Program-made: the position numbers and the translations under genes
Origin: Pyropia yezoensis
Taxonomy: Eukaryota > Rhodophyta > Bangiophyceae > Bangiales > Bangiaceae
DNA: 64,000 nt
Reading direction: 5' to 3'
Assembly: GCA_009829735.1 (NCBI GenBank)
Contig: CM020620.1
Location: 3,460,324-3,524,323 of the forward strand
In this document: piece by piece, positions 2,556 to 64,000 of the stretch
How the letters are laid out: the number at the start of each line of letters is the position of its first letter
How positions within the stretch are numbered: the stretch's first letter is position 1
Notes under the pieces: generated by a model
What the model was told of the DNA's origin: nothing
Databases searched by the model: none
The model's input: only the letters and a program-made list of their open reading frames with translations

Positions 2556-3997
2556 ATGTCTGGGCGAGGCGGTGGTGAAGGTGCGGGCGGGGATCGTGCA
2601 GGCTCGGGCCCTGCTTCTGGCGAAAGCCCCGCTAGCGCGGGTCCTCCCTCCCCTCCTCTGGACGCTGAACCAGGCGGCATGTGTTAGTCTGATGACTCTG
2701 ACGACGAGATGCTCGCCGTCGTTCTGGGCACTACAACCACCGCAGCTCTTGCAGCTCAGTGTCGTCTTGCGCTTCGACAGTCTGGGCCGCACAAGCGGCC
2801 AGGCTCTATCCCAGGCAAGCAGGGCAACAGAGACCGAGATTTTGACGTCGGCTATCGGGCTATTCTGAGAGACTATTTTGGCCTGGACGGGCGACCCCCA
2901 GTGTAATCTGAGGCCGACTTTGAGCGGCGTTTTCGCTTGCCTCGGGCCGTCTTTGAGTGCATCTACAGCGACATCAAGGACAAGCCCTTCTGGGCGCGCC
3001 GCATCAACGCCACCGGGCGGTCGCAAGCGTACCCTTTACAGAAGCTTGTCGCTGCATTTCGAGTGCTGGCGTACGGCGAGTCGTACAACCGGTCTGGTGA
3101 GTATGTGAGGTTGTCCCGCTCGACAGTGGCTGTAGCCACTACGAAGCTGGTGGACTTCATTGTCCACAAGTATGCACCTATGTACCTGCGGGCCCCCAAC
3201 GACGATGAGTTGGCGCACATCCTTCACCGCAACGCGCAGCGCGGCATGCCCGGATGCATGGGCAGCATTGATTGCTTCCACTGGCCGTGGCGGCAGTGCC
3301 CGCGAGGCCAGGCTGGGCAGTACCAGGACTACAAGGGCCGACGCTCTGTCACCATGGAGGTTGTTTGTGACGAGGACCTCTATATCTGGCACTGTTTTAT
3401 CGGCTGTGTGGGGAGCAACAACTATCTGAACGTGCTGAGGCAGTCGCCCCTGTTTCACGAGATCACGACCGGGGCGTGGCCGCCGGACCGGTTTGAGTAT
3501 GTGCTCAACGGCTGCAGACGCCGATTGCTGTGCTACCTAGCAGACGGCATTTACCCGCAGTACCCGATGTTTGCGCGACCTTTTGCCGTCGCGGTGACAC
3601 CGCAACAGCGCACATACAACAGGATGCAAGAAGCTCTGAGGAAGGACGTTGAACGTGTGTTTGCTGTGCTGACGAATCGCTTTCACATTGCACTATACCC
3701 CTCGCGTTTCTCGACTGTGACTCGGATGATTGCCACCGGTCGGGCCCTAGCAATCTTGCACAACATGGTCATACGAGAGCGTCGAGACGGATTTCTTTGG
3801 CGCTCACGCATGGCGGCCGGGGGTCGTGTCCCGGCCGCATTTCCATTGGGCGCATCTGCTGGAGGGGGAGACGGCGGGGGAGGTGGCGCAGCTCCCGCTG
3901 GGGGTCGTGACCCATCTGGCAGTTCTGCCGGTGTTGTAAGGGGCGCTCATGGGGACAGAGCCGCCCCGGATCGTCAAGCACGCTGTGGTCCAGCTCC
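2556..3997 (+). pseudogene. PIF/Harbinger-type transposase, 5' part (two nonsense codons, second catalytic Asp lost)
   Basis: One reading frame runs from ATG 2556 to the A1 insertion point and resumes at 13669. Motifs are those of HARBI1-like DDE transposases: GSIDCFHWPW with the first Asp (codon 3270-3272), HCFIGCVGSNN, LADGIYPQYP, and DVERVFAVL with the Glu (3651-3653). The second catalytic Asp of the usual GSNND-LNVL motif is Tyr here (TAT, 3423-3425). TAG at 2685-2687 and TAA at 2904-2906 interrupt the N-terminal part in frame, with clear coding sense on both sides. The family cuts and pastes its element with help from a Myb-like partner, which is also in this window. With a D-Y-E triad and two stops this copy is dead. 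Confidence 0.85.
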
Positions 3998-4360
3998 TGT
4001 AGCACAATAGGAATCCGTCGCACGTCCACTCTCAGGGAACACTCACCAAGGGGGATCGGCACCAACGTCACCGGGAGGCCAAGGTTGCTGTCCTTGGAGC
4101 GCAAGCCACGGGACCAAGATGGGAGCCCAAATGGGAGGGGTTTGTTGTTCTGCCTTGGCCGGCGGTGGATTCGCCGCCGGCCCCCTCGTTATAAACCCTC
4201 GGAGACACTACTAACTACCCTCCACCCCAAGATGCAAGTCCCTCTGGTCATACGTAACTTGTAGATACCGTGACCAGTACGGACTCTCAAATTGAAAGCC
4301 AAGGATTAGAAGTAGCCCCCCTTGCATTAGGGTCACAATACGGCCAACCATATTGCTAAA
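3998..4360 (-). repeat. A1 left LTR (3' LTR of the element)
   Basis: It starts with TGTAGCACAA on + and is over 99% identical to 13301-13663. Its inner edge reads TTGCTAAA, whereas the outer edge of the right LTR reads TTGCTACA. On the element strand a purine tract (AAGGGGGGGATA, just inside at about 4361-4373) precedes it, as expected for the plus-strand primer. It contains the hairpin and TATA described separately. Confidence 0.92.
4157..4196. promoter_or_regulatory. LTR hairpin next to a two-way TATA box (family A)
   Basis: Bases 4157-4182 form an inverted repeat with GGCCGGCGG and CCGCCGGCC arms. Six bases later GTTATAAAC (4188-4196) reads as a TATAA box on both strands. The same arrangement occurs in the right LTR (hairpin 13460-13485, TATA 13491-13499) and in A2 (TATA 37377-37385). 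In A2 the arms are a perfect 11 bp because one base change extends the pairing. On - this TATA could start the gag-pol RNA from the right LTR. On + it could start an RNA from the left LTR towards the antisense ORF. The promoter role is inferred. Confidence 0.5.
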
Positions 4361-4943: not shown

Positions 4944-7313
4944 ATGTCGGACCCCCAGGTACCCGGGGGCGAGGACGACCTCCTGCTTGAGGAGGAGGAG
5001 GAGGTGATGGTGGACGACGTTCCCGTCTCTGCCACCGCCGCCGAGTGTTTCTTGGTGAGCTCGTCCAAAGACGAGGGCGACCGGGTGACCGTTCGCGTGG
5101 CTCCGGACGGTGCTCCGAGCGGTTTGTCGTCCGTGTGCAGCGGCACGACGGCTCCGTCGGGTGGCGGGCAACCGCGGGTAGCTGCTGCGTCTACCCCTAC
5201 TCCTCCGGCGGCCCGGATGGCTCCTGTCGCCGGTGCCGGCGCGGCTCAACCTCAAGACGGCGTCGCCGGCGTGTCGGGCGGTTATGGCGGCACCCCGACC
5301 GGGACGGCGGGTTAAGACGGCGCGGGTGCCCGCCCGGGTGGTTCATCCGCGGCTGCGGGTGACGGGTCTACCCCTGCTGCCCCCGAGGTGCCCCCGTCGG
5401 GCTCGGGTGGCGGCGTTGCTCTGCCCGCGGTGCCGCGGGCGTCTGGTGGTCAAGGTGGATCTACACCGATGGCAGTGGACTCCGGTAGTTACTCCGGGCG
5501 GGCGCCCGCCCTTCTTCTTCCTCCTCGGCCCCGTGCACCTCCGGCACCGGTCCATCTGCCGGTGGGGCTTCCCCCGGCGCCCCCGATTCTTCCTGGTCCT
5601 GCCCGGGTTGCCCCGTTGGGTGGCGGCGTCGCCGTGGCGGCGGGTCAACCCGCCATGTCGATGTCCGACTTGGTGGCTCGGGTTCGCGGCCTGACTGTGC
5701 AAGAGTCAATGGAGTCCGATGGGCGGATGCGGGTGGACTTCCACCTGCCCCATCCCCGTGGAGAGTCCTCCCGGCGCGTCAAGGTGGACCCGAGTTGGGA
5801 GCGGGAGTTGGTGCGGCTGGTCAACCAGCCGAACGCGGTGCGGGTGGAACACCATTGGATCCTGAGTCAGCCGGACGACCGGCATGCGCAGCTCTGGCGC
5901 ACCCGGGTGGGACGGGGTGAGGTCTACCTCGACCCCGCCTTCGGGGTATGCGACCTGATTGCTCCCGCGTTGCCGCGAGAGGTTGACTTCCCGGCTAGTG
6001 CACGGGGGATTGCGGCGGCGGCGGAGCCGGTTGCGTTTGGGGAGACGGTGGGCGATACCGGTCGGTATCCCGACCTTGATTATTACCCGGGGGTATCCCA
6101 GTATCTGACGTTGACGGCTCCGTGCCCGCCCATGGCGGGGCTGAAGTCGGCGTCGAGCTGGCGACGCAACCATGGTGTCATGGCGGATGCGTTCCGCACC
6201 GATATAAAGTGTGCGTTGCACACCGGTAACGGTCGCGCGCCGGTATACACTCCCGTGCGCCCGCCTCTGTGGCAGGAAGGGTGGGAGCCCGCCCCGGCTT
6301 TCCGGTTTGACACCGGCTCCCGTCCCCGATACTTCGGAAGTGTGTTGGCCTCCCGGCCTGTCCACCCGCTGCAGGGGACCTTCACCCTCGAGGTTACCCT
6401 CGGGCAGGCTTCCTCCTTCTTGCTGTCCGTCCGCCGGCAGGGGCGCCTGTTTCATCTTCCGACGGGTGTCCGTCGGCACATCGCGCAGTTGGGCGTGGAC
6501 CTGATAGCCGCCAAGACCGGGTTGGCCCGGGAGTTCGAGGCCCTGCTGGCTGTTCGCGATGCCGTGAACTGGGCTGGGGTGTTGGCCCTTCCCCCGTACC
6601 GGGACCCGCAGGCTGGGGCTTCCCCCTTGCCTCGTCACTCGTTGCGTATCCGGCGTACTCAGCCGGGTGAGCCCAATTGCCATGGGTGGGCGTCCACCGA
6701 GGCTGTTGCTGACCTGGGTATTCCCATGGTTATCCATGACCCTCTTCAGGTCCTTGCCCCGTGGTTCGGTAACCCGATACCGGCGGCGGTTGGCCGTCAT
6801 CCCCGAGAGTGGGGCTCTGCGGGTGGGGAGCGTGAGGTGTCCCGTCGTCGGGCGGAGCCCCGCCGGGGTTACGGTGGAGCCCCTTCGGTGGGGTCCTACC
6901 GGGCCTCATATCAGGCGCCACCGGCTCCGGTGGTGGCCGAGTCGGCTCCTCTGGCTCCTCTGGCTGCGCCAGTGTCCCCTCCCGCCCCTGTCATACAAGA
7001 CGGGAGTCCCCGTCTCTGGTATGAGGGCGTTGACGCCCTTGTTGCCCGCGCAATGCGGGAGAGTCTCTCTGTTAGCTGGGGGGATATCCCCCCAGGTGCT
7101 GCGCTGGTTGGGTCAGCGCGTTGCTTCGGTGGCGTGCTTGACCACCTCCAGAGAGCTCTGGAGGACGTGGAGGCTGGCCGCAGCACCCTCGTTCAGCTAT
7201 GCACCGAGGTAACTCGGGTGATTGACCGTCGTGAGATTGCCGACCGGTGGAGCACGGAGATATATGCGCTTACGCGTGAGTGGCCTCCCTCGGGCAGTGG
7301 GTCTACCCACTGA
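4944..7313 (+). pseudogene. Antisense ORF protein of family A (aORF-A), one nonsense codon
   Basis: A 789-codon frame on the strand opposite gag-pol starts at ATG 4944 (MSDPQVPGGE) and ends with TGA at 7313. The only break is TAA at 5313-5315, where A2 has CAA. The N-terminal 230 residues are acidic (an Asp/Glu run near residues 13-21) and then Pro/Ala/Gly-rich. A more globular part follows from about residue 235. A central block (about residues 415-505, with RPRYFGS and VRRQGRLFHLP) aligns with the antisense ORFs of families B and C. There is no signal peptide, membrane segment or known catalytic motif. Function is unknown. Because A1 and A2 carry different lesions, the ancestor was intact, which argues for a real gene. 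It converges on pol with a gap of 452 bases. Confidence 0.75.
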
Positions 7314-7765: not shown

Positions 7766-10700
7766 TTACAGTTGGTGTCGTCGCCTCATGTAAGGCATGA
7801 GGAGTTGGCGGGGTATATTCGCCGCTTGTTCCCAGGTGGGTGAGTCGTATCCGACCCACATAACCTTGACGTACCAGGGTCCTGGTAGGTCCGGGTCGGT
7901 GTGTCCGACCACGCTCTCTACTTGGTATGGAATCCCATCCGGTCCCACCGGGTCATCTGACCGGTGGGTTGTAAGAGCTTCATGTACCAACCCAGCCGGT
8001 ACCGGCTGAGGCTGTTCCGGCTTCGGAGCAGGTGTCACATCGTTGAGGTTGATGCGTTGTATCTCCGTATCGGAGTGCAGGATGACAGAGTGATCATCTC
8101 TGTGTAAGATCTGGTACGGTCCCTTGACCGGTTGCATAAGCTTGTTCCCTCGGAACTTCTGGTGTCTGATATAGACCCAGTCACCTGTTACCAGGGTTGC
8201 GTTGCGCACCCGTAACCGGGCGTCGAAGTTCTTCTTGTATCGAAGTTGTGTTCTGTCAAGGGCACCCTTGAGCTTAGGAATCATCCACTATAGCTTGGCC
8301 CCGCTCGGGGTGTCGAGTCGAGACAGCGCGTCTCCGAGGTGGTGGGTTGACCCAGCCTTATACACGGTGCGGTAGTCGTGCTCGGCCATCTTCAGCCTCC
8401 ATCGGGCTAGCCTCCCATGGCTATCGGAATCCTTGTCACCAAGGTTGAGGAGCCATCGTAGGGGTTCGTGGTCGGACCTCACGATGAACCTGGAGCCCTC
8501 CAGGTATGGACGGAGCAGTTGCACTGCCCATATAACCCCGAGGCACTCACGCTCGGTGGCACTATAGTTACGCTCAGCCGGGTTGAGTGTCCGGCTGAAG
8601 TACCCTACCGGACGTAGGTCCGGGATAACGTTATCGGAACCGATCAACGTCTCTCCCTGTAACAGGGTGCATCCCACTTGTGTATCGCATGCATCGACAT
8701 CGATGACGAAGGTACCCCGTCTGTGCGGTAACGCAAGGACGGGTGGGGATAGTAGGGCTCGCTTCAGCGACTCGAATGCCTCCTCTTCGCTAGGCGAAGG
8801 GGGTTGGAGTACCTTGGGCAAGGTACTGCTCGTAAGAACCGTTAACGGTTTAGCAATCCGAGCGAAGTCCTTGACGAACCGTCGGTATACGTTGCACATT
8901 CCCAGGAAGCTCTTGAGCTGCGTCTGGGTGTTAGGGATCCGGGCATCCCGGAGTGCCCGGGTATTGGCTTCGAGTACCCCTAGTTTACCAGGGGTTACCT
9001 GGTGGCCCAGATACTCGACCGTCTGTTGGAAGAAGGCGCACTTCTTCAGACGCAGGGTTACCCCGGCGTTCCGCAAGAGGGTGAGTACCTCGTCAACATG
9101 TTGCACATGGTCATCCATGTTACGCGAGAAGACGATGACGTCATCGAGGTACACTAGGCAGTTACGCCACTTCACCCCCGACAGTATAATGTCGATAGCC
9201 CGCTGGAATGTAGCGGGGGCGTTGGACAATCCGAAGGGCATCCTTAGGAACTCGTACACTCCACTGTGACAGACGAATGCCGTCTTGGGGATATCCTCGT
9301 CCGCCACCGGGATCTGCCAGTATCCGGCAGTCGATGGTGGTAAACACCGTAGCTTCCCCCAGGGAGTCGATGCATTCATCCATCCTTGGTAAAGGGTATG
9401 TGTCCTTCTTGGTAACCAAGTTGAGGCGTCGATAATCGATGCAAAACCGAGGGGTTTGATCCTTCTTCGGTACGATAACGACTGGGGCACCCCACTCCGA
9501 CATCGAAGGTCGTATCACCTTCGCTTCACTCATCCTCTTCACTTCTCCATCAACGATCTCTCGTTGCATAGGTCCCGCTCGGTGCGGTTGCGACCGGGCG
9601 GGGCGTGCGCCTGGTACCAGGTCTATACGATGTTGGGTTGCCCCAATGGTACCCAAGGCCCCGCCTGTCCACATGACGTCGTGCTTTCTTAGCATCCGTC
9701 GTACCCCTTCGGCTACCGGAGGGGGAAGGTGGTCGAGGTCAGCCTCGGCCAGAGCCTGCGATGCTTCTTGGTCCTTTGGCGGCATGTCCACCGAAGGCGC
9801 CGATGGGTCAGGCTTCCCGTCATCGGGTTGCTGTCGCTCGGTGGTCTTGGCGACCGCCAGCACCTCAAGTGGTTCCACTTGACCTTCCTTGTCAGGGGTA
9901 AGGATATCTCCTTCGTAGAGTTCGGCAATCCCGAGGATAGTTCCCTTCGGGAGGGTGACTGCCTTACGGCGATAGTTCGCCATCACTAAGAGGGACGACC
10001 CTTCTGATGGGAGGTCTATGAGACCGTTGGCCATGGTCAACCCATGGCGCTTGTACGTCCGCAAGTTGGACTTGACTCTGCAGATGCCTGCGAGGTCACA
10101 GTTAACCGGGAGGACTGTCTCCGACAACGGCTCAAAGCGAGTTCGCTTGGCCAACCGAAGTGTCTTCGGCTCGACGCTTGCGTACACCTCAGCCACGTTA
10201 ACATGGCTCCCTTGTAGCGTCAGGTCCCTGACGATAGCCGTATGTCCTCGCTTCGTCCCGTCAGCTTCTTGAAGCTCGACGGTCCTCCGGCCTGGCTGGA
10301 TTGCATCCACGTGAACGTTGATGAAGGTGCACCCTAATATGCAGGGCACCGATAGGGTCCTACACACCCGGAAGTCGAGTTCCGTGGTGAGTTCCCCGAT
10401 GGTAACCCGCAGCGACATCGCTGCGGTCGTACGAATGAGGCGACCATTCGCGTCCTTGATGGTGGGTCCCCGAGTCACTCTGACTCGCGGAAGCCACTTG
10501 TCCGGGAGGGTATCCTTCCGGATAAGGTTGGGTCCAGCCCCTGTATCCAGTATAGGGTAGTACGATCGGGTCGACTGGGGGTCAACCCCCAGTGTGGCTG
10601 ATACCTTGATGTTCTCCAAGGTGAACAGCACGTGGCCTACACCGATAACCGGTGTAACTCGGGCATCCTGAACAGGGCCCTTGTCTGGTTCCATGTGACG

Positions 10701-10898
10701 GGGCTTCCCGTCCTCTCCTCCCGTTATCGGGAGGTTCTCATCATTCCCCTGACTCCGTGTCGTCGGGGCCGGAAGGTGTACCCGGGGATTGATGCGGCGC
10801 CGGCTCAAGCGCGCTCGCCGTGGGGCTTTCCCCGCGGTACTCCGGGGTGGCTTGCTTGGGTTACCCCAGCGCCCCTCGGTCATCCTTCCTCTTACTCG
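7766..10898 (-). pseudogene. A1 Pol polyprotein (protease, RT, RNase H, truncated integrase, chromodomain)
   Basis: Pol can be read from the frameshift site at 10898, or from ATG 10883 (MTEGRWGNPS). It has an aspartic protease motif ILDTGAG, RT with PRFCIDYRRLN and CLVYLDDVIVF, RNase H with VIDVDACD, TERECLGVIWA and HHLGDALSR, then the integrase tail and a chromodomain (VESVVGH, YVKVMWVGYDSPTWE). Compared with A2 there are three lesions. A 5-bp deletion near 9328-9330 shifts the frame inside RT, just after TTIDC. A 1,044-bp in-frame deletion at 8300/8301 removes the end of the RNase H linker plus the integrase zinc finger and catalytic core. TAG at 8288-8290 stands where A2 has TCG. The copy cannot make an active integrase. 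Confidence 0.88.
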
Positions 10899-13075
10899 TT
10901 TCCCGCCCTTGGTCGGGTGCTGTCCGCCGGGACATCCGGCTGAGGAGGTGCCTCCTCGACGGCCATTACTCCACCTGGAGCTGGCTGCCTACCGGGTGCG
11001 GGTCCGGGTGCTCTGGTAGGATACCCCCCGGTGGATGCCTTGCGTTGCACCGCTGCCCGCCGAGACTCCTCGGGGATGAGTGGGCAGGAAGACACCCAGT
11101 GCGGGGGATCCCCACACAACATGCATCCGGACGTACCGGTCCCCCCTTGAGTTCGCATCGGGGTAGCCCCGTAGCTGCGGTTGCCTCCCTCTGGCGCCCG
11201 AGTGCCTGCTCCTTGGTAGGCCTTGGGTCCTTGGGTCAACCGGAACATGGACTCCCCCAACCGGTTGGGTCGGCCCGCAATCTGCGGAGGTGCCTCCGTG
11301 CGCACCGCCCATGTTGGCAAGGGTTGGTGAGGGTTACCCGTCACTGGGGAGTACCCCGTAGTCCGTACGTACGGGACGCGACGTCCCGTGCCTTCGCTGA
11401 CCTGGAACTGGGTCCCCGCCGGAGCGATGTACGCTACCGTACCTTGCTCATCAATCACCGGCGTAGCCGGTAACAGCAGGTGGCCCTGCTGGTCAACCAG
11501 TGGTTCCTCCTCGCCCGTGGGGGCGTACTCGGTAGCCACCAGTACCGGTGCGGCCTTCCGTTCCATCTTGTCTTGCCTCGGTACCGGGGTAAGATTGAGC
11601 TTGCTCCCCTCACCCGTGGGCTTTGAGGCCAGAGCACACTCCGGGTGAAGCACCCGGTAGGCGTCCCCCAGGGACTTGCACGTATGCATCAGTCGACTGA
11701 AGTTCGTCCGTGCCGTGTTGGCGCCCCGTGCGGATATCCGCACGTAGTTGGGTACTCCTGCGAACAGGATGGCCCGTAGCTCCCCTTCGCCGAGGAGCTT
11801 CCCCAGCTCGTAGTCGAGCTCTTGAATCCGTCGTCCGAACATCTCCTCATCGTCCCAGCTCTGGGCGGTGGCAGTGCGCAGGGCCCGGTAGTGGTCCTCG
11901 CACTTGTCCTCACTGAGGTAACTGCTCAGCAGCTCCTTGAGAATCCCACGGTAATCCATGGGGGTGGCCGCAACCCTCATTCCCGGCATCGGGGATGCCT
12001 GGCGAAGGATGCCTCGCACCCGTTCATCAACAAAGAACGGGAGGATCTCCAGGGCCAGCCCCTCGTTAACGAGGGCCTTGTTCGCGGCTGCCTTGAAGCT
12101 AGTCAAGAAGCCGATGACTGCCAACGGGCGTCCGTTCGGCCCCCCGAACATAGGGACTCCCTTCATAAGGGTCTTCATAGAGCGGATCGCCCGATGCGAC
12201 GTAATACGCATCGATTCCGATACGGTGGTAGAGCGGTCCTCCAAACGATAACGTTCCGGAGTAAGAACCGACCGGAAGACCTCGTTGACGATCTCCGTAT
12301 CAGCGTCCTGGATATCCAGTCGCTTAGCCAGTTGATGAGCAAACTCATCGGACTCCATCAGCTTCAGTAGGCTCGCAGTTACCTGCGCGGTCATGGCTTC
12401 CACCACTGAAGATGGTACTTCAGGCGTCGGCACCTCGTGAACCCGAGTTGCCTGGCCTCCTTCGTCGTGGGGATACTGTGAGAGGGTACCCCCTCCCCCA
12501 ATAACCGACTGTCCACCGGCGTAAGTATCCGCCGGGTCGTGTCCGCGGAGTCCGCTTCGGGTGCTCCGAGCGTATCGCTCCGTGTGACTCCGTTCCAACT
12601 CTGCCGACGAGTCGGATCCATACCCCATTGTGTCCGGGGGCTGTCCGGGAGTTGCTGCGCCGGGGTCGACCCCGGTGGACTCCGAAAGTAGTCCGGCCGG
12701 TTCGAACCGTACCGGTGTGGGAGGAACACGACGGGGTCCCGTCGTGTGGCGTGTTGACATCAACACAGCCATTGCGTCCTCCGTCCGCTCTTGACGAGCG
12801 TCGAGTCCGGAAAACCGGGCCTCGATGCGGGCCTATGATGCCGTCAGGGAATCCCCTGGTGAAAGAGGCGGCAAAGTGCGGTCGGTCGATGACAGTTGAG
12901 GCGGGCCCCCGCCTCCTGCCGTCCGAGCCGTGCCAAACGTCGATCCGGCACCGGAAAGCATTGGCGTCTCAATGTTGTCGATCGGGTTCCCGATCCCGGT
13001 TCCCGTAGTCACCTCCGGAGTCGGCGTCGACGCCGATCCGTCATCTTGAACGTTCCCCGTCTCTTGGGTAGACAT
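10892..13075 (-). pseudogene. A1 Gag (capsid and zinc-knuckle nucleocapsid), one nonsense codon
   Basis: The frame runs from ATG 13075 (MSTQETGNVQ) to TAA 10892-10894, 728 codons, with one TAG at 12833-12835. A downstream ATG at 12772 (MAVLMSTRHT) opens the 626-residue remainder. The middle resembles Ty3-type capsid (helical region with PFFVDERVRGIL, YRGILKELLSSYL and EDKCEDHYRAL). Near the C-terminus CMLCGDPPHWVSSC is a C-x2-C-x4-H-x4-C zinc knuckle that would bind the genomic RNA. The TAG is most simply a changed CAG, but A2 has lost this part, so an original stop with initiation at 12772 is not excluded. Confidence 0.8.
10898..10904 (-). promoter_or_regulatory. -1 frameshift heptamer GGGAAAC at the gag/pol junction (A1)
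   Basis: In the gag frame it reads G GGA AAC, then GAG and the TAA stop. After a one-base backward slip the frame runs through ATG 10883 into protease. The pattern X XXY YYZ is the known retroviral -1 slip site. A2 has the same heptamer at 54098-54104. G-rich sequence downstream could fold, but no single convincing stem was found by eye. Confidence 0.65.
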
Positions 13076-16171: not shown

Positions 16172-16816
16172 TGTAGCGTAATGGAACCCAGATTCCCGGA
16201 CCCAGAAACCACAACCACACACTCAGAGACCACAGTCCGAAGCCCAGGAAGGAACAGGTAAGAGCCCTTGCTGATCCACTCGCCCGCCACGATAAGAGGC
16301 AAAGGTAAACAGGACAAAAGCCCGAGGGAGAAGGAACCCAAAGTACTGTTGATTTTACAAGATGGCCCCGGGGAGAACCCCGGAGCACCCCTCAAGAACC
16401 TCCCCCCCTGGCCCCTCCAGGGGCCCTGAGCGAGGCCCCCAGAGGGCGCCCCCAGCGGGCCAAGTGCCAGCAAGGCACCGGCCGCTCACCGGGCCAACAC
16501 ACAAAAAGCAAGCGAGATCCCCCCACACACAAATGTCAATCCCCCAAAAAAAACCCAGTGGGAAAAAGGGGAAAGACACGAAATCACGCAAGGAAAACAA
16601 ATGCGAAAAATCAAACAAATAACCCGAAGGTCAGTATGCCCCAACCCGGCAAGTCCACCGCTCCGGGTGACCAATCAGGGCACCGGGCGTGTCGCCACTG
16701 CCCCGGGCCACCGATGCAGGGATCCTCGGCCAGCGCGTGGTTCCACGTAACGCTGCCAGCCGGGTCCCAAGGCAGTCTCCCGGGTTCCAACGGTCCCAGG
16801 GGCTCAGAACGCCACA
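16172..16816 (-). repeat. C1 left LTR (3' LTR of the element)
   Basis: It runs from TGTAGCGTAA to AACGCCACA and has the same length as the right LTR. On the element strand a purine-rich AGTGAGGGGGCCA lies just inside (about 16817-16830) as a possible polypurine tract. No clear TATA box was seen. Confidence 0.92.
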
Positions 16817-17384: not shown

Positions 17385-19130
17385 ATGGTTACCGGCAGCG
17401 CCGCGGCGGGTTCGCCTGCTGGCGCGGGCCCTGGGGCCCCTGAGCGACAAGGTGACCGAGCTGGGCAAGGTGTACCCGCTCCTGGGTCCGGGGTACCAGC
17501 TGGGCAAGGTGTACGCGATGCTGAAGGTGGCCCCGTTACTGGGCCAGACGTTCTCCCAATGGATCAAGAGGAAACGGGGGCGGGCCAGTCGTACGCGGCC
17601 ATAGTTGGCGTGGTTCCTGAGGACTTCGGATCCGAGTCGGTTACGGCGTGGCGTCGGGAGGAGGCGCGAGGTTGGGTTACTGGTACCCGGGCCCATGGGA
17701 TCCTTCGAGCCGTGGACGGGAGCTGTCCGGGTAACTCGTTTCGCAAGCAGATGGCGGTAATGCCGGATGCTCGGATCCCTGTCCTTGCGGACCGTTCCCT
17801 GTCGATCACGGTTGTACGGCACGCGGACGAGGTCGGGTACGTCGAACGGTTCAAGACGGTCCGCACGGAACTCCTCCAAGGGCCCCTACCTGCCGCACCT
17901 TCACCCTGTTACCTGATCGGGTCTCCCCCGTACCTGAACCGTCCCGGGTACCAAGTGACCCTACCTAGCCTGGTGTTCAGTCGGCACCATCGTGACAAGA
18001 GTCGGTTCCTGGTCGGGTGGCATCAACAAGAGTTCCCCAGTTGTTCCGCGACTACCCGTGGGCTCCATTACGTTCGGGTTCCGCACTGGTTCGAGAACGT
18101 GGAACTACCATACGGGGCCCTTGTGGAACTTCCTGCGGTCCAGTGTTACTTCACGGAACTTCTTCGTTCGTCGGACGCGTTCGCCTGGTACGTGTTTCGA
18201 ACGGAATGGGCTACCAACTGTGCTGTGTACCTGCTTGAGTTCGCCCGTCGGGAAGGTTACCTGGGCCTCTTCTCTCGGCCCCTGCGTACGTGGATCCAGC
18301 GTGTCGGTACCCGTACCATCTGTGAGGGTCCCGGTGGCGTGGACGAGGCCGCCGTGCGGGACCTGGACGCCCTTCTGACCCTTAGTGACCAAGTGGTTTC
18401 CGCCGCGGGGCTCCGTGCGCGTCTCCTCGCTTCCGAGAAACGTCGCAAGGATCGCGGTGTCTTCGTTCGGGTTCGGTTCGAGAGTCGGGACGGGGTATGG
18501 GCGGCCCTGGTAGACGAGGACCTGGCCCAACTGGACCTACCGTACTCATCGGACGTACTGGAAGGGCGTGAGATCCTCAGGGCCCAGGACGAGAACGCTG
18601 ATCAGTCGGACGAGGTGGTTCCCGCAGGTCCCTCTGGGTTCCCGGGCGCTCGGTCATCGGGGTCAGCTGGTCATCGTTCCAACCCTCCCGGGGGTCGTAC
18701 CGTGTACGTGGCTAACCTTCTGGACCATGGGGACGTGCCCGACGCGGAACTTATGGACCTGGAGGGAAACCTGTTTACCACGGCGGTTCTTGGGCTACGC
18801 AGTTTCTTTGGGGGTCCCGCGGACGTCCTTGCGAACGCTCATGTCGGGCCCCTGTTGTCGGCTTCGCTTCACGCGACTGTTAACCTTGGGGCCTGTGTAG
18901 CCGAGTGGACTTGTGCTCAAGGGGGCTCCAGTAACTCAGACTACAAAGGGCTATTGAACCTGGTTGACCGTAACGGGATCCGTGGGGACCTTGGTACCGA
19001 GTTGGGTAACGCCGAGGCGGCCGCGCGACGTGCCTGGACGGGGACCCAGGAAGGTTCTCGTGTCCGTGGTCGAGACGACATGGACGAGGAAGAGTCTTCT
19101 CGTCCCGACAGTCGTTTCCGTAGGTACTAG
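17385..19130 (+). CDS. Antisense ORF protein of family C (aORF-C), intact
   Basis: An uninterrupted frame of 581 codons runs from ATG 17385 (MVTGSAAAGS) to TAG 19130, opposite to gag-pol. It is open further upstream to a GTG at 17283. It is the only intact copy of this protein type in the window. The first 60 residues are Gly/Ala-rich. A central block (about residues 205-300) aligns well with family B: RFLVGWHQQEFP against YLVTSAQLEFP, VELPYG against VEVPYG, and ARREGYL against QRRGML. The C-terminus is acidic then basic (DDMDEEESSRPDSRFRRY). No signal peptide, membrane span or known fold is visible. Function is unknown; a nucleic-acid or Gag-binding accessory role is a guess. It survives intact in an element whose gag-pol has decayed. 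Confidence 0.8.
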   Translation: MVTGSAAAGSPAGAGPGAPERQGDRAGQGVPAPGSGVPAGQGVRDAEGGPVTGPDVLPMDQEETGAGQSYAAIVGVVPEDFGSESVTAWRREEARGWVTGTRAHGILRAVDGSCPGNSFRKQMAVMPDARIPVLADRSLSITVVRHADEVGYVERFKTVRTELLQGPLPAAPSPCYLIGSPPYLNRPGYQVTLPSLVFSRHHRDKSRFLVGWHQQEFPSCSATTRGLHYVRVPHWFENVELPYGALVELPAVQCYFTELLRSSDAFAWYVFRTEWATNCAVYLLEFARREGYLGLFSRPLRTWIQRVGTRTICEGPGGVDEAAVRDLDALLTLSDQVVSAAGLRARLLASEKRRKDRGVFVRVRFESRDGVWAALVDEDLAQLDLPYSSDVLEGREILRAQDENADQSDEVVPAGPSGFPGARSSGSAGHRSNPPGGRTVYVANLLDHGDVPDAELMDLEGNLFTTAVLGLRSFFGGPADVLANAHVGPLLSASLHATVNLGACVAEWTCAQGGSSNSDYKGLLNLVDRNGIRGDLGTELGNAEAAARRAWTGTQEGSRVRGRDDMDEEESSRPDSRFRRY

Positions 19131-19508: not shown

Positions 19509-22500
19509 TTAGCAACGGGGACACATGTCTGCACCCGGTTCAAGGTTCCAGGGCCACACATCATAGATAGCCTTGAACGATTCCAGTAGTACGATGGCCT
19601 CCTCCTCCCGCAGTGGAGGTTCGGTCCCAACGCGTTCACAGTACTGTGGCAAAAACCACAAGCACACACGGCACCCAAGTTGGGGCGGTGTGCTAGGGCT
19701 GCCTCCCGTGTCGGGGGAACCGGAAGAAGTGCAAGTCGCACACACTCTGTCCCTGTTGTGGGGCAAACCCCCCACGGACAAACAAGAGGATGGTGTGTGG
19801 TCCAACAGTTTCTTGGTCGGGACGGGGACGCAGGGCCAAGCCCCGCTGTCCCTCCCCTTATCCCCCCAGGGTCCACTCAGAATCTCGCCACTCAGAATCT
19901 CCCACCCCAGCACCTGCCCACCGGGCCACACGAAAATTCAAGACGATAAATGCAGAAAACCCTCAAATCCAAGTTGGATTTACTACTAAGCTAACTATCC
20001 CAAACTTAGGGAATATGGACCCAAATGCAGGGGGAGGAACGGATCAGGCTAGTGGCCTGCCGCCCCTTGCATGGCACGTGTTGCCCCCCTACCTGGGGGT
20101 CAATGCTGCCACAAGTACTGGATAACCTTGGCCCTGTCGAACTTGTGGTAAGGTTCCCAGGTATCCTCGGACTAGGCGTAACCCCACCAGCGTACCAAGA
20201 GCCAAAGGTTTTCTTCCTGGTCCCTGTCGTGCCCCAAGAAGCGTTCCCAAACAAAAGGGGGGCCAGAGTCCTCGTGGTCCAGGGGTACAACCGGTTCCTG
20301 CGGACCATGTAACATGGACGTGGAATCCGTCTGGCCAGAGGGTGTGGGTGCACGGGCCACATGGTCACTACTGACCCGGTCACGGATCCCTTCAACTAGT
20401 ACCGTGAACGTGTGCCCATCCCGGTCCACGATCCGATAGGGACCCTTGACCCTCTGGTCCAGTTTCTTCCGACTATCGTCGTTGGTATCCACGTACAGCC
20501 AGTCTCCCACGCGAAGGGTCTCGTTCACAGGCGTAACCCGTTTATCGTAACCCCGCTTGTACCGACGCTGGGCCAGGTCAAGGTTCTTGCGTAACGTAAA
20601 AGCTAGGTTCCTTAGGTGGGCCCGTCTCATCTCGCGTACCTGGCGTGCGTTGCCACCGCACTCCTTGGGATACGGGGACCCTGGGAGCCGGTCCAGTGCA
20701 AAGGTACGCACGCGTTCAGGGATAACGAACTCAAACGGGGCCACGCCGGTACTCTGTTGTGGCCTGGTATTGTACGCCACGGTAAGCACGGAAACCAATT
20801 CGTCCCACTGGTCCTGTTGGTCCTCAATGTACGTACGTAACTGGGCCACGATAGTACGGTTAAAGCGTTCCACTTGTCCCTGGGTCTGCGGATGGTACGT
20901 GGTAGACGTTACGTGTTTGATCCCAAGCATACTGCAGACGCCACGGAAGTGCGTGGACGCCAGCTGGGGCCCGTTGTCAGTCAGTAGCGTTTCCGGGGGC
21001 CCGTAAGAAGCGACCCACGTATCCAAAAAGGACGAGGCCACCACTTCCGCGTCCTGACTGCTAATGGGTACCACTCTGGTCAGCTTGGTAAACCTGTCCA
21101 CGATAACCGAAAGGTACTTGTTCCCGTTCACTGTCTCAGGCAAGGGTCCCAACAGGTTAAGGCAAACGTCCTTAAAGGGATCCGTTGCGGGGAACAGCTT
21201 CAACGGATTGGTACGTCGCCTTCCTTGAACCTTGCCCTTTGAACAAGCGGTACAGTTGGTAACAAAAGCGTGCACATCGGCCACCATAGTTTCCCAGTAG
21301 AACGCTCGTCTCATAGAGGTATACATCTTGTGAATCCCTGGGTGTCCCGCGTGGCCTGGTTCATGTTCCAAAGTCAGTACCTCCTGCTGTAGTTCCTTGG
21401 GGACCACTATCTGAACGGCTCAGTCCAGAGGAGCCAGTCGTACAAGTAACCCTTCAGGTGTTTCCCCGTACTGCGAGTTAGCGTTCCGGTTCATCTCTTC
21501 CTGAAGTTCCTTGCAACGCTTACCGTTCCCCTGAGCCTTGAGGATCCTGTCAATCGACAGCGGTGGGTACCTCTTGTGTGTCTTGAAGCTCGGGCGGACC
21601 CATCCGGTAACGAAGTTGGCCATGGTTAACAGGGAAGGTATCTCCTCAGGTATAGGTCCTCGGTCGTGTCCCGTAGTTTCTAGCCATGACATAAAGTCTG
21701 CAGCATGGTGGTGTTGACCAGGACGGGACTCAACGGTATAATGGTACTCAGCTAACCGGAGTCGCCAACGAGCCAAACGTCCATGGGCTCCGTCCATGTG
21801 TAACATCCACTTCAAAGCGGTGTGGTCCGTACGTACAACGAAGCGTGTCCCCTATAGGTACGGTCGTAACAAAAAGAGAGCCCAGACAACAGCGAGGCAC
21901 TCGCGTTCTGTGGTACTATAGTTCCGTTCCGCTTGTGTCAGGACCCTGCTCCAGTAACCCACGGGCTTCTAGGCCCCGTCCTCTTGTTTCTGTAGCAAAA
22001 CGCAACCAATCTGGGCAGCGCTCGCATCGGTATCCACAATAAACTGGCCCGAGCGTCGCGGAAGCGCCAGGATCGGTGTGTGGGTCAGACGGTACTTCAG
22101 TTCCTCAAACGCGTCCGTCTGAGCCGGAGTAAAAGGAGGCAGAGGGTCGGGTACCTTGGTACTTGTCATAGCCAACAGAGGGCGGGCAACCTGAGCATAG
22201 TCCTTAACAAAGCGACGGTAAACGTTACACATTCCCAGGAAACTGCGTAGGTCCTTCTTGGTTCTCGGTGTCTTGGCTTCCCGTAGCCCGACTAGGTTCT
22301 TCTCGTTCACGCGGAGCTGGCCCTTGCCGACGATATGGCCAAGGTACTCAACCTCGTCATGGAACAAAAAGCACTTGCTGGCCTTCAGGGAAACACCGGC
22401 CTTAGCGAGTAGCCCAAAGATCTCTTCCAGGTGCTCCAGGTGTTCCATAGGGTTCTTAGAGAAAACAATAATGTCGTCCAGGTACACGAGGCACGTCTTC

Positions 22501-24239
22501 CACTTAACCCCGGACAGGATCATGTCAAAGGCCCGTTGAAACGTAGCCGGAGCGTTTGTTAGACCAAAGGGGAGCCTGATGTACCGGAAGGCTCCTTCGT
22601 GACACGTGAACGTCGTCATATCCTGGTCCTCGGCAGCAACAGGGATCTGCCAGTAACCACAGTTCGCGTCCAGCATCGAAAATACGGTAGCCTCTCCCAG
22701 AAAGTTGATACAGTCGTCCATCCTTGGTAACGGGTACGTGTCCTTAACCGTCACATCGTTCAGTCTGCGGTAGTCAACACAGAACCGCGGGGTACCATCG
22801 GGCTTGGGGACCAAGACGACTGGGAACGACTACTCAGCCTGAGACGGCTCAATGACCCCGAGCTTGGTCTGCTTTTCCACTTGTTCCTTGTTCAGGTCCC
22901 GATGATGGAGCCCGGTACGGTACGGTTGGGAACGAATAGGCTTGGCCCCGTCCTTCAAAGTGATCCGGTGGGGTGTTACGTCAATACGTCCCAGTTGTCC
23001 GTCCCACAGACCCTTATAGCGTTCCAAAAGTTCACGTACAGCCTGGTGCAGTTCAGGCGGGATCAGCTCGTACGCCACCTTGAGCATCTTGACCGGGGTT
23101 CCGTCTGACGTCTTGCCCTTTGTATCCGGCTCGGGTACCGTGGTTCCATCGGATCCCTCAGGGGTCTCGCCCTCCGGTGACGACGCTTGCCCCGACGTGT
23201 TCCCTTGCTCTGTTCCCAGCGTAACAATAGGGTCGGCCACCTCACTAGGGGCCGGCAAGTAACCAGTGGGGACCTTGAGCACGGGTCCGTCGTACGGGAT
23301 AGCGAGGCCTACGGCGAAGTTCTCGGGCAAGTTGACCGCCCGGTTCGAGATGTTCATGATGTGGATCCAGAAGTTCCGCCGGGTCCGTACGTTAGCCAGG
23401 GCGTTATGCAGACGGAGCCCTTTCTTAGACATCTTGTGCGGTCGTTCATATAGTAAACAACGTCCGTTCGTTCCGCACTTGACGTAGACCGCTCGGAGGG
23501 ATGGGGGTGCCAAAGTTACACCCATGGAGAGGTACAGGGCAGAAGGATCTCGGCGTACAGGGTTACCCTTCACAGGAAAAGCGTTCTGGGTCTTTCCGTC
23601 CCACGTTCTCTTGGCGTAGGTCAGGAAACCCAGGTTCCAGAGCACAGACTCTGTTCCAGGGTAGATCGCCTTAACGTGTTCCTTATGAAAGTCCATCCCG
23701 AGGATCAACGGTACCGAGAGGGCCCTGACCACGAGGAACTCGAACTCCATCGGCTTCCCGTTCACGATCACCGATAGTTCCACGATCCCACGGGCCCGTA
23801 ACAATTGACCAGAGGCGTCACACACATGCGTCGACTTGGGGGTCCTTGACGCCAGTCGTCGCCACCCTTCAGGGAGGACATCCTCACGTACCACGCTTGG
23901 CCCTGCACGAGTGTCCAGAATAGCCGTAGTGTCCTTCGCTTCCTCCGTGTCCAGTCGAATCAAAGCGTTCAAAGCAAAGTTTCTCTTACGCAGTACAAGC
24001 AAGGTACCCTTGAACCAATAGGGCTTCTTCATTCCCATCCGACGTCGGAGCCCAGACTTGGATCGTCGTGCCAGAGAGGGCAAACAGGAACAAGGGTTTT
24101 TCAAAGTAATAGGAGACTCAGAACGTACAGGTATAACGGGGCCCTTAAAGATCTTGGAGAACCCCAACGCAGTTGCAAACGAGCAGGTACTACCCCGACG
24201 ATGGGGAGGGGACCGTTTCGATCCGCCCCCCGTTACTGT
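19509..24239 (-). pseudogene. C1 Pol polyprotein, one frame with five in-frame stops and a solo-LTR insertion
   Basis: From the slip site at 24239 to TAA 19509 the frame is continuous over 1,419 codons once the 469-bp solo LTR and one AGTAC are removed. Protease has ILDTRAG instead of DTGAG. RT has PRFCVDYRRLN and CLVYLDDIIVF. RNase H, an integrase with HPQTQGQVERFNRT, and a chromodomain (LLVRWWGYA, then SEDTWEP) follow. Stops are TAG 22830-22832, TAG 21969-21971, TAG 21852-21854, TGA 21420-21422 and TAG 20172-20174. Neighbouring residues match the other families at each one, so these are substitutions. The protein would normally be cut by its own protease into the replication and integration enzymes. 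This copy cannot make them. Confidence 0.88.
19645..20113 (-). repeat. Solo LTR of family B inserted in C1 pol
   Basis: It is a 469-bp LTR with the same ends as B1 and B2 (TGTGGCA and TGCCACA), flanked by AGTAC on both sides (19640-19644 and 20114-20118). There is no internal sequence. It lies inside the chromodomain codons of C1, and the frame closes up perfectly without it. A solo LTR is the usual product of recombination between the two LTRs of a full element. Confidence 0.93.
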
Positions 24240-25939
24240 TTTCCCGAGGGTCCCGGCTCCTGGGAACCGTCGTTTACTTGGTACCCTTGGTCCGCCTCGT
24301 CATCCGAGAGGTTTATCCCTTCACAAAGGGCCTGAACCATAGCAACCCGGATCTGACGATGGAACTGGCGGTCCGCGTTCGGCTTTACATCGGTACTCTG
24401 ACTCCGTCCACGAGTGGCCGCAAGGAACGAGTCCCGGGCCTGGAGAACCGCTTTCCGTTAGACCTCAGACAACATGGAACATTGATGGGCCATGTGACCC
24501 GGTTCCCAACAAAGGTAACAACGGTACGGGCGTCGACTGTCCATGGTACGTACTCCCACGAACTGGGGCGTGGGTCCCTTGAACCCAAACACTTGACCCG
24601 ACCCGTTCTTCTCAGTTTCCTTCTCGAGGGGGCCCTTAAGGATTGTAGAGGGGCCCATAGGATTAACAGCCATCAACGGGGACGAGTCCAACGAACGATT
24701 GGGCCTCGGTTCAGTGGGTCTGCGGACGGTTCCAGAGGGGCCAGCCTTGGTCACAGAGGACCCACGGGCCATCTTGATAACCTTGGTAGCCGCCTTGTTG
24801 TTGCCCGCAGTAAACGTTACCAGCTGCTGGTACGTACGGTCAGGGATATTGTAAACAAATGCGTCCGTACGTAGGTACTCAGGGAGCCCTTGAATCAGCT
24901 GCTGTTTCATGGTACCTTCGGTGTGGATGTTCCCACATAGTTCCGTCAGACCCCGTAAGCGTACCGCAATGGCCTCGATCCCCTCATCTGGTTCCTCAGC
25001 GGCCCGACTGAACTTGTACTGCGCCAGTGCCAACGCATGGGGTTCAGCGTACGTTTCAAGGAACCAGTTAACGGCCTCAGGGTAACTCGTGATCGACGCG
25101 CCACCTGATGCGCTTGAGGAGTCCGGAAGGGCCCGAGTGTACCACAGTTCCGCGTCCCCAGACAGGAAATGAGGGATCGCGTACAGGGCCATGCCCTCGG
25201 AAACCCCATTATCGTTACATGCCTTAACCAGTTTGCGGAGCCACGTGAACACCTTGAGGGCCTCTTTCCCAGAGATAGTAGGGTACCCAGCAAAAGAGTG
25301 TTTCATGTTACGAGCAACCCGTCCCATCTTACGTGCTTCTCGCGTTCCATTGGTCGATTTCTTGTTCCGTAGGCGATACGTACGAAAGTCCAGGACCCGA
25401 GCAAAACGATCATCGGAACACTTGATTACCTGGGGCTCGGTTCGTGTGTTCCGAATGGGTTCCAGGTCCTCCTCATCGAAGACGGATGAAAATGTGGTAC
25501 CAGAGGAAGAAGAGGAAGAGGAGCCACTCGAATGATGACGACGCCGGTGACGGCGGGAACGAGAACGATCGGAACGCCTGGTATCACGGGACCCACCCTG
25601 GCCAGCAGGACTCTGGCTCAGGGCCTGGAAAACAGTAGCCAAAATCTCATCTCGAAAAGTTTCCAGTGTGGACACAATGTCCGGGGACCCAGCAACAGTA
25701 GCCGAAGGTGGAACTCGGGTCCCTGACTCGGAACCCGCGTTCCCACGTAAATCCTGACCCATTGTAACCCGGATCCCACCCGGGGGCGCTGTCCCACGAC
25801 GAGGAATCCCTGTCGGCCCGCCTCCACCACGGTTCGACGGACCCGAGGGACCGCCGCGGCCACGGCCAGCGGGAGTAACCATCGAAACGTCCGACGGCGC
25901 ACCACGGCCCCGACCACCCGAAGGGACAGGGTCCGTCAT
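24233..25939 (-). pseudogene. C1 Gag, one nonsense codon
   Basis: The frame runs from ATG 25939 (MTDPVPSGGR) to TAA 24233-24235, 568 codons, with an in-frame TAA at 24458-24460 after the zinc knuckle. The N-terminus is Arg/Gly-rich (GRGRGAPSD, GRGRGGPSG), then Ser/Arg-rich. The capsid-like part (about residues 200-400) includes YAIPHFLSGDAELWY and NWFLETYAEPHALALAQYKF. CYLCWEPGHMAHQC is a CCHC zinc knuckle. About 75 residues remain open after the nonsense codon up to the slip site, which supports a simple stop mutation. Confidence 0.82.
24239..24245 (-). promoter_or_regulatory. -1 frameshift heptamer GGGAAAA at the gag/pol junction (C1)
   Basis: In the gag frame it reads G GGA AAA, then CAG and TAA. 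The pol frame is -1 and is open across the junction with no ATG required. Downstream G-runs and C-runs (GGGGGG, then CCCCTCCCC) within 35 bases could form a stem. It is in the same place as the sites of families A and B. Confidence 0.65.
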
Positions 25940-26057
25940 GTTGGCCGTGCGGCACTCGACCTGAACCAAACGATCTCGTTACCAGAAACGGGAACCAAGG
26001 AACCAAACGCCACAGAAAAAGAAGAGGGCTGTCCCGATATTGGGGAAGAGTAAAGCC

Positions 26058-26076
26058 CTCCCCTGCTGCTCCACCA
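26058..26076 (-). promoter_or_regulatory. Primer-binding site of C1
   Basis: On the element strand TGGTGGAGCAGCAGGGG begins four bases after the 5' LTR. It is the same tRNA-end complement as in family B and differs from family A at two positions. A short gag leader without an ORF lies between here and 25940. Confidence 0.72.
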
Positions 26077-26080
26077 TAAA

Positions 26081-26725
26081 TGTAGCGTAATAGAACCCAG
26101 ATTCCCGGACCCAGAAACCACAACCACACACTCAGAGACCACAGTCCGAAGCCCAGGAAGGAACAGGTAAGAGCCCTTGCTGATCCACTCGCCCGCCACG
26201 ATAAGAGGCAAAGGTAAACAGGACAAAAGCCCGAGGGAGAAGGAACCCAAAGTACTGTTGATTTTACAAGATGGCCCCGGGGAGAACCCCGGAGCACCCC
26301 TCAAGAACCTCCCTCCCTGGCCCCTCCAGGGGCCCTGAGCGAGGCCCCCAGAGGGCGCCCCCAGCGGGCCAAGTGCCAGCAAGGCACCGGCCGCTCACCG
26401 GGCCAACACACAAAAAGCAAGCGAAATCCCCCCACACACAAATGTCAATCCCCAAAAAAAAACCCAGTGGGAAAAAGGGGAAAGACACGAAAACACGCAA
26501 GGAAAACAAATGCGAAAAATCAAACAAATAACCCGAAGGTCAGTATGCCCCAACCCGGCAAGTCCACCGCTCCGGGTGACCAATCAGGGCACCGGGCGTG
26601 TCGCCACTGCCCCGGGCCACCGATGCAGGGATCCTCGGCCAGCGCGTGGTTCCACGTAACGCTGCCAGCCGGGTCCCAAGGCAGTCTCCCGGGTTTCAAC
26701 GGTCCCAGGGGCTCAGAACGCCACA
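26081..26725 (-). repeat. C1 right LTR (5' LTR of the element)
   Basis: It runs from TGTAGCGTAA to AACGCCACA, followed by target copy GGCAT at 26726-26730. About six differences from the left LTR were counted by eye (for example near 26091, 26312, 26425 and 26695). Confidence 0.92.
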
Positions 26726-38572: not shown

Positions 38573-39041
38573 TGTGGCAAAAACCACAAGCACACACGGC
38601 ACCCAAGTTGGGGCGGTGTGCTAGGGCTGCCTCCCGTGTCGGGGGAACCGGAAGAAGTGCAAGTCGCACACACTCTGTCCCTGTTGTGTGGCAAACCCCC
38701 CACGGACAAACAAGAAGATGGTGTGTGGTCCAACAGTTTCTTGGTCGGGACGGGGACGCAGGGCCAAGCCCCGCTGTCCCTCCCCTTATCCCCCCAGGGT
38801 CCACTCAGAATCTCGCCACTCAGAATCTCCCACCCCAGCACCTGCCCACCGGGCCACACGAAAATTCAAGACGATAAATGCAGAAAACCCTCAAATCCAA
38901 GTTGGATTTACTACTAAGCTAACTATCCCAAACTTAGGGAATATGGACCCAAATGCAGGGGGAGGAACGGATCAGGCTAGTGGCCTGCCGCCCCTTGCAT
39001 GGCACGTGTTGCCCCCCTACCTGGGGGTCAATACTGCCACA
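38573..39041 (-). repeat. B1 left LTR (3' LTR of the element)
   Basis: It runs from TGTGGCAAAA to ATACTGCCACA, with a 7-bp terminal inverted repeat. On the element strand it is preceded by the purine tract CTGAGGAGAGGGGAG (39042-39056). Confidence 0.93.
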
Positions 39042-39379
39042 CTCCCCTCTCCTCAGTTTCGACCGACCCGGTCGGCCCTGTGAGGGGGTGCGTAAACGCA
39101 CGTCTCGGCGTTGGGGGCGCGACTTGCTGTCCCCCATCGAGTACGTAACACGGATGTGGAGGCGGTCACGTTGACCGCCCCTCTCCTCAAGCTTGCCCAC
39201 TCGGCAGCTTGCTCTCCTCAGTTCACACTTCACCATCACCACCACCTCCCCTTCACCTTCCACTGGGCCGCCCCACGCTGGGGAGGCCACCCGTATACCC
39301 ACGATCCGAGTCCCCCTCAACTCGAGGCGGGTCTCGTGCTGCGATAGCCAGAGCGTCTCTCCCCAACTTGGGGAGAGCC
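39042..39379 (+). other. Leader of the B1 antisense ORF with three short hairpins
   Basis: Inverted repeats lie at 39063-39075 (CCGAC, GTCGG), 39088-39101 (GTGCGT, ACGCAC) and 39161-39179 (GGCGGTCA, TGACCGCC). No ORF is supported, although the frame of the next gene is open upstream to 39209. B2 keeps the same features at its right end with a few changes. Confidence 0.5.
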
Positions 39380-45258: not shown

Positions 45259-45264
45259 TTTCCC
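45219..45264 (-). promoter_or_regulatory. -1 frameshift signal of B1: heptamer plus stem-loop
   Basis: GGGAAAC lies at 45258-45264, the gag stop TGA at 45252-45254, and a stem-loop at 45219-45251 follows. Relative to B2 one stem base changed from A to G, which turns an A-U pair into a G-U pair, so the stem is kept. Confidence 0.68.
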
Positions 45265-47317: not shown

Positions 47318-47786
47318 TGTGGCAAAAACCACAAGCACACACGGCACCCAAGTTGGGGCGGTGTGCCAGGGCTGCCTCCCGTGTCGGGGGAACCGGAAGA
47401 AGTGCAAGTCGCACACACTCTGTCCCTGTTGTAGGGCAAACCCCCCACGGACAAACAAGAAGATGGTGTGTGGTCCAACAGAGTCTTGGTCGGGACGGGG
47501 ACGCAGGGCCAAGCCCCGCTGTCCCTCCCCTTATCCCCCCAGGGTCCACTCAGAATCTGCCCACTCAGAATCTCCCACCCCAGCACCTGCCCACCGGGCC
47601 ACACGAAAATTCAAGACGATAAATGCAGAAAACCCTCAAATCCAAGTTGGATTTACTACTAAGCTAACTATCCCAAACTTAGGGAATATGGACCCAAATG
47701 CAGGGGGAGGAACGGATCAGGCTAGTGGCCTGCCGCCCCTTGCATGGCACGTGTTGCCCCCCTACCAGGGGGTCAATACTGCCACA
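47318..47786 (-). repeat. B1 right LTR (5' LTR of the element)
   Basis: It is a 469-bp LTR directly before target copy CCGTG (47787-47791). Eight differences from the left LTR were counted by eye, five of them as adjacent or paired changes. Confidence 0.93.
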
Positions 47787-47791
47787 CCGTG

Positions 47792-63961: not shown

Positions 63962-64000
63962 TGTGGCAGTATTGACCCCCAGGTAGGGGGCAACACGTGC
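63962..64000 (+). repeat. B2 3' LTR, first 39 bases
   Basis: It is identical over 39 bases to the start of the 5' LTR at 55048. The rest lies beyond the window. Confidence 0.92.

Follow-up and report, generated by a model that had tools for sequence, protein, structure and literature searches.

Results

Antisense ORFs and carrier elements in the window

The window analyzed here is a stretch of 64,000 nucleotides of Pyropia yezoensis (assembly GCA_009829735.1, contig CM020620.1, positions 3,460,324 to 3,524,323 of the forward strand). The genome comprises 107,475,971 bases; its three large contigs measure 43.6, 34.3 and 29.4 Mb. For this species the genome paper gives 65% GC and 48.0% repeats, mostly LTR retrotransposons (PMC7423979). 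The GC content of the window amounts to about 56-73% per 4-kb block. Comparison of the window with itself revealed three element families, A, B and C (Table 1). The ORF under study belongs to element B and lies in a plus-strand frame that is open from 17139 to 19127. Its coordinates in a preliminary description of this DNA were matched exactly by the ORF listing.

Table 1 Features of elements A, B and C in the window (positions counted from the first letter of the window)
Feature	Position	Strand	Remarks
Element B antisense ORF	17385..19130	+	581 codons; first ATG at 17385, stop ends at 19130
Core of the B antisense protein	17871..18575	+	portion aligned with A and C, largely also with E
Element B 3' LTR (TG..CA)	16172..16816	-	left flank GGCAT (16167-16171)
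Element B 5' LTR	26081..26725	-	right flank GGCAT (26726-26730)
Element B primer binding site (TGG..)	26060..26076	-	complement of tRNA 3' end
Element B pol, interrupted frames	20175..24299	-	RT 21972-22829, integrase 20175-21419
Element B gag	24461..25978	-	Retrotrans_gag 21.6 bits, CCHC 16 bits, both below Pfam cut-offs
Lone C-family LTR copy	19645..20113		between B pol and B antisense ORF
Element A antisense ORF, C-terminal 614 codons	5469..7310	+	frame open from 5316
Element A 3' LTR	3997..4358	-	partner LTR 13300-13661
Element A gag and pol, broken frames	7769..12832	-	
Element C antisense ORF, frame-broken	39380..40615	+	411 codons here, 647 codons in other copies
Element C 3' LTR	38573..39042	-	partner LTR 47318-47787
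Element C gag and pol	41275..46409	-	
Antisense ORF of second C copy	62740..63999	-	ends at window edge; gag-pol 55546-61559 on +
Antisense ORF of second, broken A copy	47683..49362	+	A copy split by the first C copy

All three belong to the Ty3-type LTR retrotransposons. For element B an LTR pair, a tRNA primer site and a 5-bp target duplication, given by the direct repeat GGCAT on both sides, were found. The domains follow the order RT-RNase H-integrase in A and C and are present in pieces in B. A protease match was weak and restricted to A (20.6 bits, below the cut-off). In all three elements the TGG-type primer site adjoins the right LTR; hence, the strand of gag-pol is the sense strand. 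As gag and pol of B lie on the minus strand and the ORF on the plus strand, the ORF is antisense. The LTRs of a pair differ at 3 of 362 positions in A, 6 of 645 in B and 8 of 470 in C, pointing to recent insertion. Repeated flanks are also seen for A (GCTCC) and C (CCGTG) if the LTR ends are shifted by 1-2 bases from the limits given by the repeat finder.

ORFs of 580-790 codons had been described for all three families. The antisense orientation and the position between pol and the 3' LTR hold for each of them, but the window copies of A and C are frame-broken, with 665 and 488 codons. The N-terminal part of the A ORF lies outside the frame of 5469..7310 in the window copy, and the open C frame extends from 39149 to 40612 on the plus strand. 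Copies elsewhere in the genome have frames of 825 (A) and 724 codons (C), corresponding to about 789 and 647 codons from the in-family ATG. The second C copy is inverted and extends from 55048 to the window end. Two further regions of the window were assigned. Positions 1-1612 are the 3' end of an element of the canonical chromodomain family F, and 26976-37093 is a 5.06-kb tandem duplication (99.9% identical, GC about 72%), each unit of which contains 36-bp repeat arrays and long overlapping open frames on both strands.

Homology of the antisense proteins

BLASTP among the window ORFs connected B with C (2.6e-10) and C with A (1.3e-5). A first profile comparison was colinear for all pairs (B-C 3.9e-8, B-A 3.2e-5, C-A 1.7e-5), and profiles with more members gave P = 6.5e-9 (B-C), 6.9e-6 (B-A) and 3e-6 (C-A). 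The profile scores of these pairs were 54-75, compared with at most 22.7 in column shuffles (eight each). The homology of the A, B and C proteins, which had been proposed from the window, is confirmed by these significant and colinear profile matches.

Furthermore, four RT loci of other kinds were sampled (L056, L057, L058 and L059). In two of these, D (L058) and E (L059), pol is followed downstream by long antisense frames matching B or C. Profile comparison gave P values of 1.8e-12 for D-E, 9.8e-5 for B-E, 1.3e-4 for C-E and 0.0055 for C-D. A-E was marginal (0.059), and no direct profile match was obtained for B-D (P 0.67) and A-D (0.29); D is thus linked to the protein family through E and C. 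Of the previous count of three families, A, B and C hold, but with D and E at least five exist. The pol segments of A-E are 45-65% alike. The loci L056 and L057 represent family F, with 28-38% pol identity to A-E. No antisense homologue was found in the 6.5-kb stretches of L056 and L057; for L056 this refers to a short stretch up to position 3040, past which other inserted elements lie.

Between pol and the 3' LTR, at least five families share one homologous protein gene in antisense orientation. That these ORFs are real, homologous genes is in our view almost certain.

Protein searches yielded three homologues for B, one for C and nine for A. Seven homologues of the A type (P0008-P0014) are hypothetical proteins of Pyropia vietnamensis with 41-51% identity, one of them spanning 98% of the query. 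P0001, P0002, P0005 and P0006 share 96-98% identity with copies in the genome and thus probably derive from the same or a very close species. The support across species therefore concerns mainly the A type.

A remote homologue of the D protein was observed at L069:24-3245 (1074-codon frame, 26% identity, E 1.7e-11). The approximately 6 kb fetched downstream of it gave no match to the pol set. This locus is possibly a sixth family, a remnant or a host copy.

Domains of the carrier elements

The elements had been called chromoviruses. This label holds for family E with a Chromo domain of 38.6 bits (Pfam cut-off 25.1), but C (20.0), D (19.3) and A (14.6) remain below the cut-off, and the B integrase frame gave no Chromo match at E<=1. 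The canonical family F scored 55.0 bits.

The pol of D (L058, residues 991-1060) ends, after a chromodomain-like stretch, in a Dam-type DNA adenine methyltransferase (PF05869, 29.2 bits; cut-off 28.1). No Dam match was detected in the pol tail of L059 (family E). Dam-type domains are known from DIRS elements. Among the best-ranked literature matches there was no report of this domain in Ty3 elements.

Association with one RT type

The 150 RT matches listed were divided into 27 of D/E type and 123 of F type by the first model position matched (1 versus 2 to 4). RTs of known family agree with this split, with position 1 for A, B, C, D and E and position 3 for F. A homologous ORF on the other strand, at most 7 kb downstream, was found for 19 of the 27 D/E-type RTs listed and for 2 of the 123 F-type RTs. 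On the same strand the counts were 0 of 27 and 1 of 123, and upstream on the other strand 3 of 27 and 3 of 123. One of the two F-type exceptions is an F element nested inside a B copy on contig C2. It sits 116 bases past the last codon of the B ORF and has the same F end as window positions 1-1612. Eight of the 27 D/E-type RTs had no antisense ORF among the matches listed, which is not proof of absence. The count was based on 71 of 72 B, 91 of 91 C and 69 of 69 A matches, the best 46 of 83 E matches and the best 6 of 60 matches of a further list.

With support of 48-66 the RT tree leaves the branching of A, B and C unresolved and does not allow A, B, C and D-E to be rooted, so that a single gain of the gene is unproven. 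We consider it likely that the ancestor of the clade acquired the gene a single time and that it was then inherited vertically along with the element.

Open frames and purifying selection

The longest frames of B (663 codons), C (724) and A (665) were reached by none of 300 dinucleotide shuffles each, the best shuffled frames being 404, 490 and 478 codons, respectively; for C, the complete locus L023 of 4374 bases was shuffled. Of the matched stretches, 87 of 91 (C), 55 of 69 (A), 42 of 72 (B) and 47 of 83 (E) contained no stop. The query for C was the shortened form found in the window; four rows of the E list belong to D. Stops inside the match occurred in 30 of the 72 B and 36 of the 83 E matches.

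The dN/dS ratios were calculated by the Nei-Gojobori method. Among C copies the ratio was 0.14 (253 pairs of 23 copies; range 0.03-1.15). For B, 0.25 was obtained within B2 (10 pairs; range 0.19-0.59) and 0.43 within B1 (28 close pairs; range 0.36-1.26). The values were 0.24 for B1 against B2 (40 pairs) and 0.26-0.33 for B3/B4 against other B copies; synonymous distances above 1 in these two comparisons are rough. Sixteen chosen pairs gave 0.12-0.37 for A (ten pairs), 0.12-0.20 for E between subfamilies (four pairs), 0.58 for one close E pair with 23 changes, and 0.21 for D (one pair). The B set comprised eight B1 and five B2 copies of L001-L020 plus L051 and L053; seven broken or partial loci of L001-L020 as well as L052 and L054 were left out. 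For C, of 30 loci the 23 whose ORF has exactly 647 codons were used.

As control, the remaining frames of the same alignments were evaluated and gave ratios of at least 1.09, except for the minus frame sharing the third position (0.26-0.50). The latter contains on average 14.6-23.5 stops per copy in B and C; for the pairs of D and E the number is 5-9. In the three sense frames over the ORF the mean number of stops per copy was 4-23.5 in four comparisons of B and C and 1-9 in the D and E pairs. The third codon position takes 69% of the substitutions in C.

Ratios below 1 were thus found among the copies, and the frame control points to the antisense frame. The antisense frame is kept by purifying selection in five families. 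For the C copy pair of the window, pN/pS was 0.073 for the antisense ORF, 0.064 and 0.269 for parts of pol and 0.168 for gag; constraint on the C antisense ORF is about equal to that on gag-pol in the same copy pair. The A copy pair of the window, of which the second copy is broken, gave 0.53 for the ORF and 0.41-0.87 for gag-pol. Constraint is weak in some pairs, namely at the upper ends of the B1 and C ranges, in the close E pair and in this A pair.

Comparison of L001 and L016, representing B1 and B2, showed LTRs of 93-98% identity, pol ends of roughly 75-88% and antisense proteins of just 63-64%. This pattern looks like LTR exchange by recombination between diverged interiors.

Properties of the antisense proteins

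The forms measured have 528-942 residues. No Pfam family reached its cut-off in the antisense proteins tested, and the window ORFs of A, B and C gave none at E<=1. Unrelated matches below the cut-off were RGS12_usC in one of 14 members (E 0.2, search at E<=10) and Ribosomal_uS5m_N in the family E protein (E 0.15). Pfam matches were absent for D, B4 and L069 as well as for the full-length forms of A and C. A PDB sequence search with the core alignment gave a single match, to flagellin (E 4). AlphaFold models were poor, with mean pLDDT of 37.2 and 53.7. The latter value belongs to the core model (235 residues, 11 sequences), in which residues 101-180 reach about 60-82. At this low confidence the core is predicted to be helix-rich, with several helices ending in a beta hairpin. 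Searches of these models with Foldseek against BFVD and PDB and with VIA-align returned nothing convincing.

The N-terminus of the antisense protein is of low complexity and in A strongly acidic. The proteins of C and D have pI values of 9.3 and 10.8 and basic clusters mostly near the C-terminus, with RS dipeptides. Those of A, B and E have a pI of 5.5-6.4 and one or no basic cluster; the A homologue of P. vietnamensis has a pI of 9.2 and no basic cluster. As basic and RS-rich tails occur in C and D alone, nuclear location is not a shared sequence feature. No membrane helix was detected in nine proteins, the highest hydropathy over 19 residues being 0.98-1.62.

Two candidate identities were rejected. 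A duplicate of Gag was discarded since the antisense core, when compared by hhalign with the joint Gag alignment of A, B and C, gave P 0.42. An env-like ORF does not agree with the antisense orientation and the lack of a membrane segment (maximum hydropathy 1.62).

Discussion

Comparison with known antisense genes

Antisense ORFs at this place are known from Ty3 elements of plants. The aORF of Retand-type elements likewise lies in antisense orientation between pol and the 3' LTR. Its TRP28 domain (Transposase_28, PF04195) was not found here: the genome scan at E<=10 gave 0 matches, and the 14 members had none; the two are set apart by this one domain. The previous statement that the algal ORFs are unlike those of Retand types is therefore borne out for PF04195. 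Furthermore, Retand is described as a non-chromovirus lineage of flowering plants, whereas the carrier here is red-algal. Gene23 of maize Grande and the antisense ORFs of rice RIRE2 and of PvRetro13 share position and strand with the algal gene. Their hosts are flowering plants, and the likeness is one of description alone. In general, the arrangement is known from Retand, Grande and RIRE2, but the protein family (compared with TRP28), the host and the carrying clade differ. The word 'alga' occurs 0 times in the text of PMC7264820. No report of antisense ORFs in red-algal retroelements was among the best-ranked literature matches, a search whose scope did not extend to the supplements of the P. 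yezoensis genome paper.

Outside plants, HBZ and APH-2 of HTLV-1 and HTLV-2 are described as nuclear regulators whose gene lies in antisense at the 3' end of the LTR retroelement (PMC11963269). The position of the algal gene at the 3' end of an LTR element is comparable. The bZIP of HBZ was not found in the algal proteins, and Pfam detected no other known DNA-binding domain above cut-off. HBZ is also smaller than the algal antisense proteins. The env-like third ORFs of plant elements are extra ORFs between pol and the 3' LTR as well, but they lie on the sense strand, whereas the algal gene is antisense and has no membrane segment.

Function and origin of the gene

A working protein had been suggested from conservation, and as far as codon patterns can tell, dN/dS and the frame control support this suggestion. 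On balance, we regard a bona fide accessory gene of one red-algal Ty3 clade as the best explanation overall, albeit by a modest preference. Selection is visible among young, near-identical copies; hence, it should work via element spread, which suggests that the protein benefits the element itself.

As the ORF is read in the direction leading away from the 3' LTR, the simplest source of its mRNA would be an antisense promoter in or next to this LTR, and a transcript starting there would supply the message. According to PMC7264820, antisense transcription of HTLV starts in the 3' LTR, and the protein of Grande gene23 is nuclear, its RNA coming from an upstream antisense promoter. Between B1 and B2, identity falls from 93-98% in the LTR to about 85% and then 50% along the leader from the LTR to the ATG, with mostly 55-79% in the ORF. 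This profile would fit a shared control region or, equally, a recombination tract.

The product would be a soluble, non-membrane protein acting on the life cycle of the element itself. The likeliest site would be the nucleus, where it may regulate transcription of the element, RNA handling or integration. Comparable functions have been proposed in the literature for the Retand and Grande antisense proteins and for retroviral HBZ; such a nuclear regulatory role of the algal protein is conceivable, at somewhat less than an even chance. We put forward still more tentatively the full reading that a third antisense gene defines the clade, was gained before the A-E split and has since been retained and encodes a trans-acting nuclear regulator of a new protein family, perhaps of new fold, which arose independently in another eukaryotic lineage and is convergent with HBZ and Retand.

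It is rather unlikely, but the most serious of the alternatives, that the protein is a structural or replication accessory serving packaging, as RNA chaperone or in nuclear import of the integration complex. Constraint on the C ORF about as strong as on pol and the absence of a membrane segment agree with this, and the basic, RS-rich tails of C and D would fit RNA or DNA binding. Such a protein would have to be supplied together with gag-pol, and an antisense transcript is not an obvious means for this. In addition, A, B and E are without basic tails, and similarity to the Gag of the elements is lacking in the comparison given above.

Recent or repeated capture of a host gene appears improbable. 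Transduction is offered as an origin in the plant literature (PMC11963269, PMC7264820), and the homologue at L069 shows no pol match in the downstream stretch covered. This locus may itself be a remnant or a sixth family. Against capture, the gene keeps its place and strand in five families with diverged pol segments, and the homology spans this deep divergence; no Pfam family was over cut-off, and no relative was found among solved structures.

Another explanation is that the antisense RNA itself matters, by self-limitation through dsRNA or by transcriptional interference, the ORF being secondary. Antisense transcripts of this kind are discussed for retroelements in PMC7264820. A role of the RNA predicts no codon pattern and is disfavored as the sole role, because dN/dS is mostly 0.12-0.43 and substitutions in C are in excess at third positions; we consider it very improbable. 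A chance frame in GC-rich DNA or the shadow of a sense gene is ruled out for practical purposes by the shuffles of all three stretches, the stop-filled sense frames, the homology across families, the frame control and dN/dS, even though a GC content of about 62% makes long frames commoner and another part of the window (26976-37093) also contains long overlapping frames.

Significance

The A-type homologues in P. vietnamensis suggest that some hypothetical proteins of this species are element genes; as P0008-P0014 carry this designation, its gene counts may include such genes. Antisense third genes have been known from Ty3 elements of flowering plants and from deltaretroviruses. Here a further family of such genes, unrelated as far as the comparisons above reach, is found in a red alga, across an element clade and under measured selection. 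If the preferred reading of an accessory gene is true, LTR elements would have acquired antisense genes of this kind repeatedly and in one and the same position, and it becomes testable whether this antisense position next to the 3' LTR is what matters functionally.
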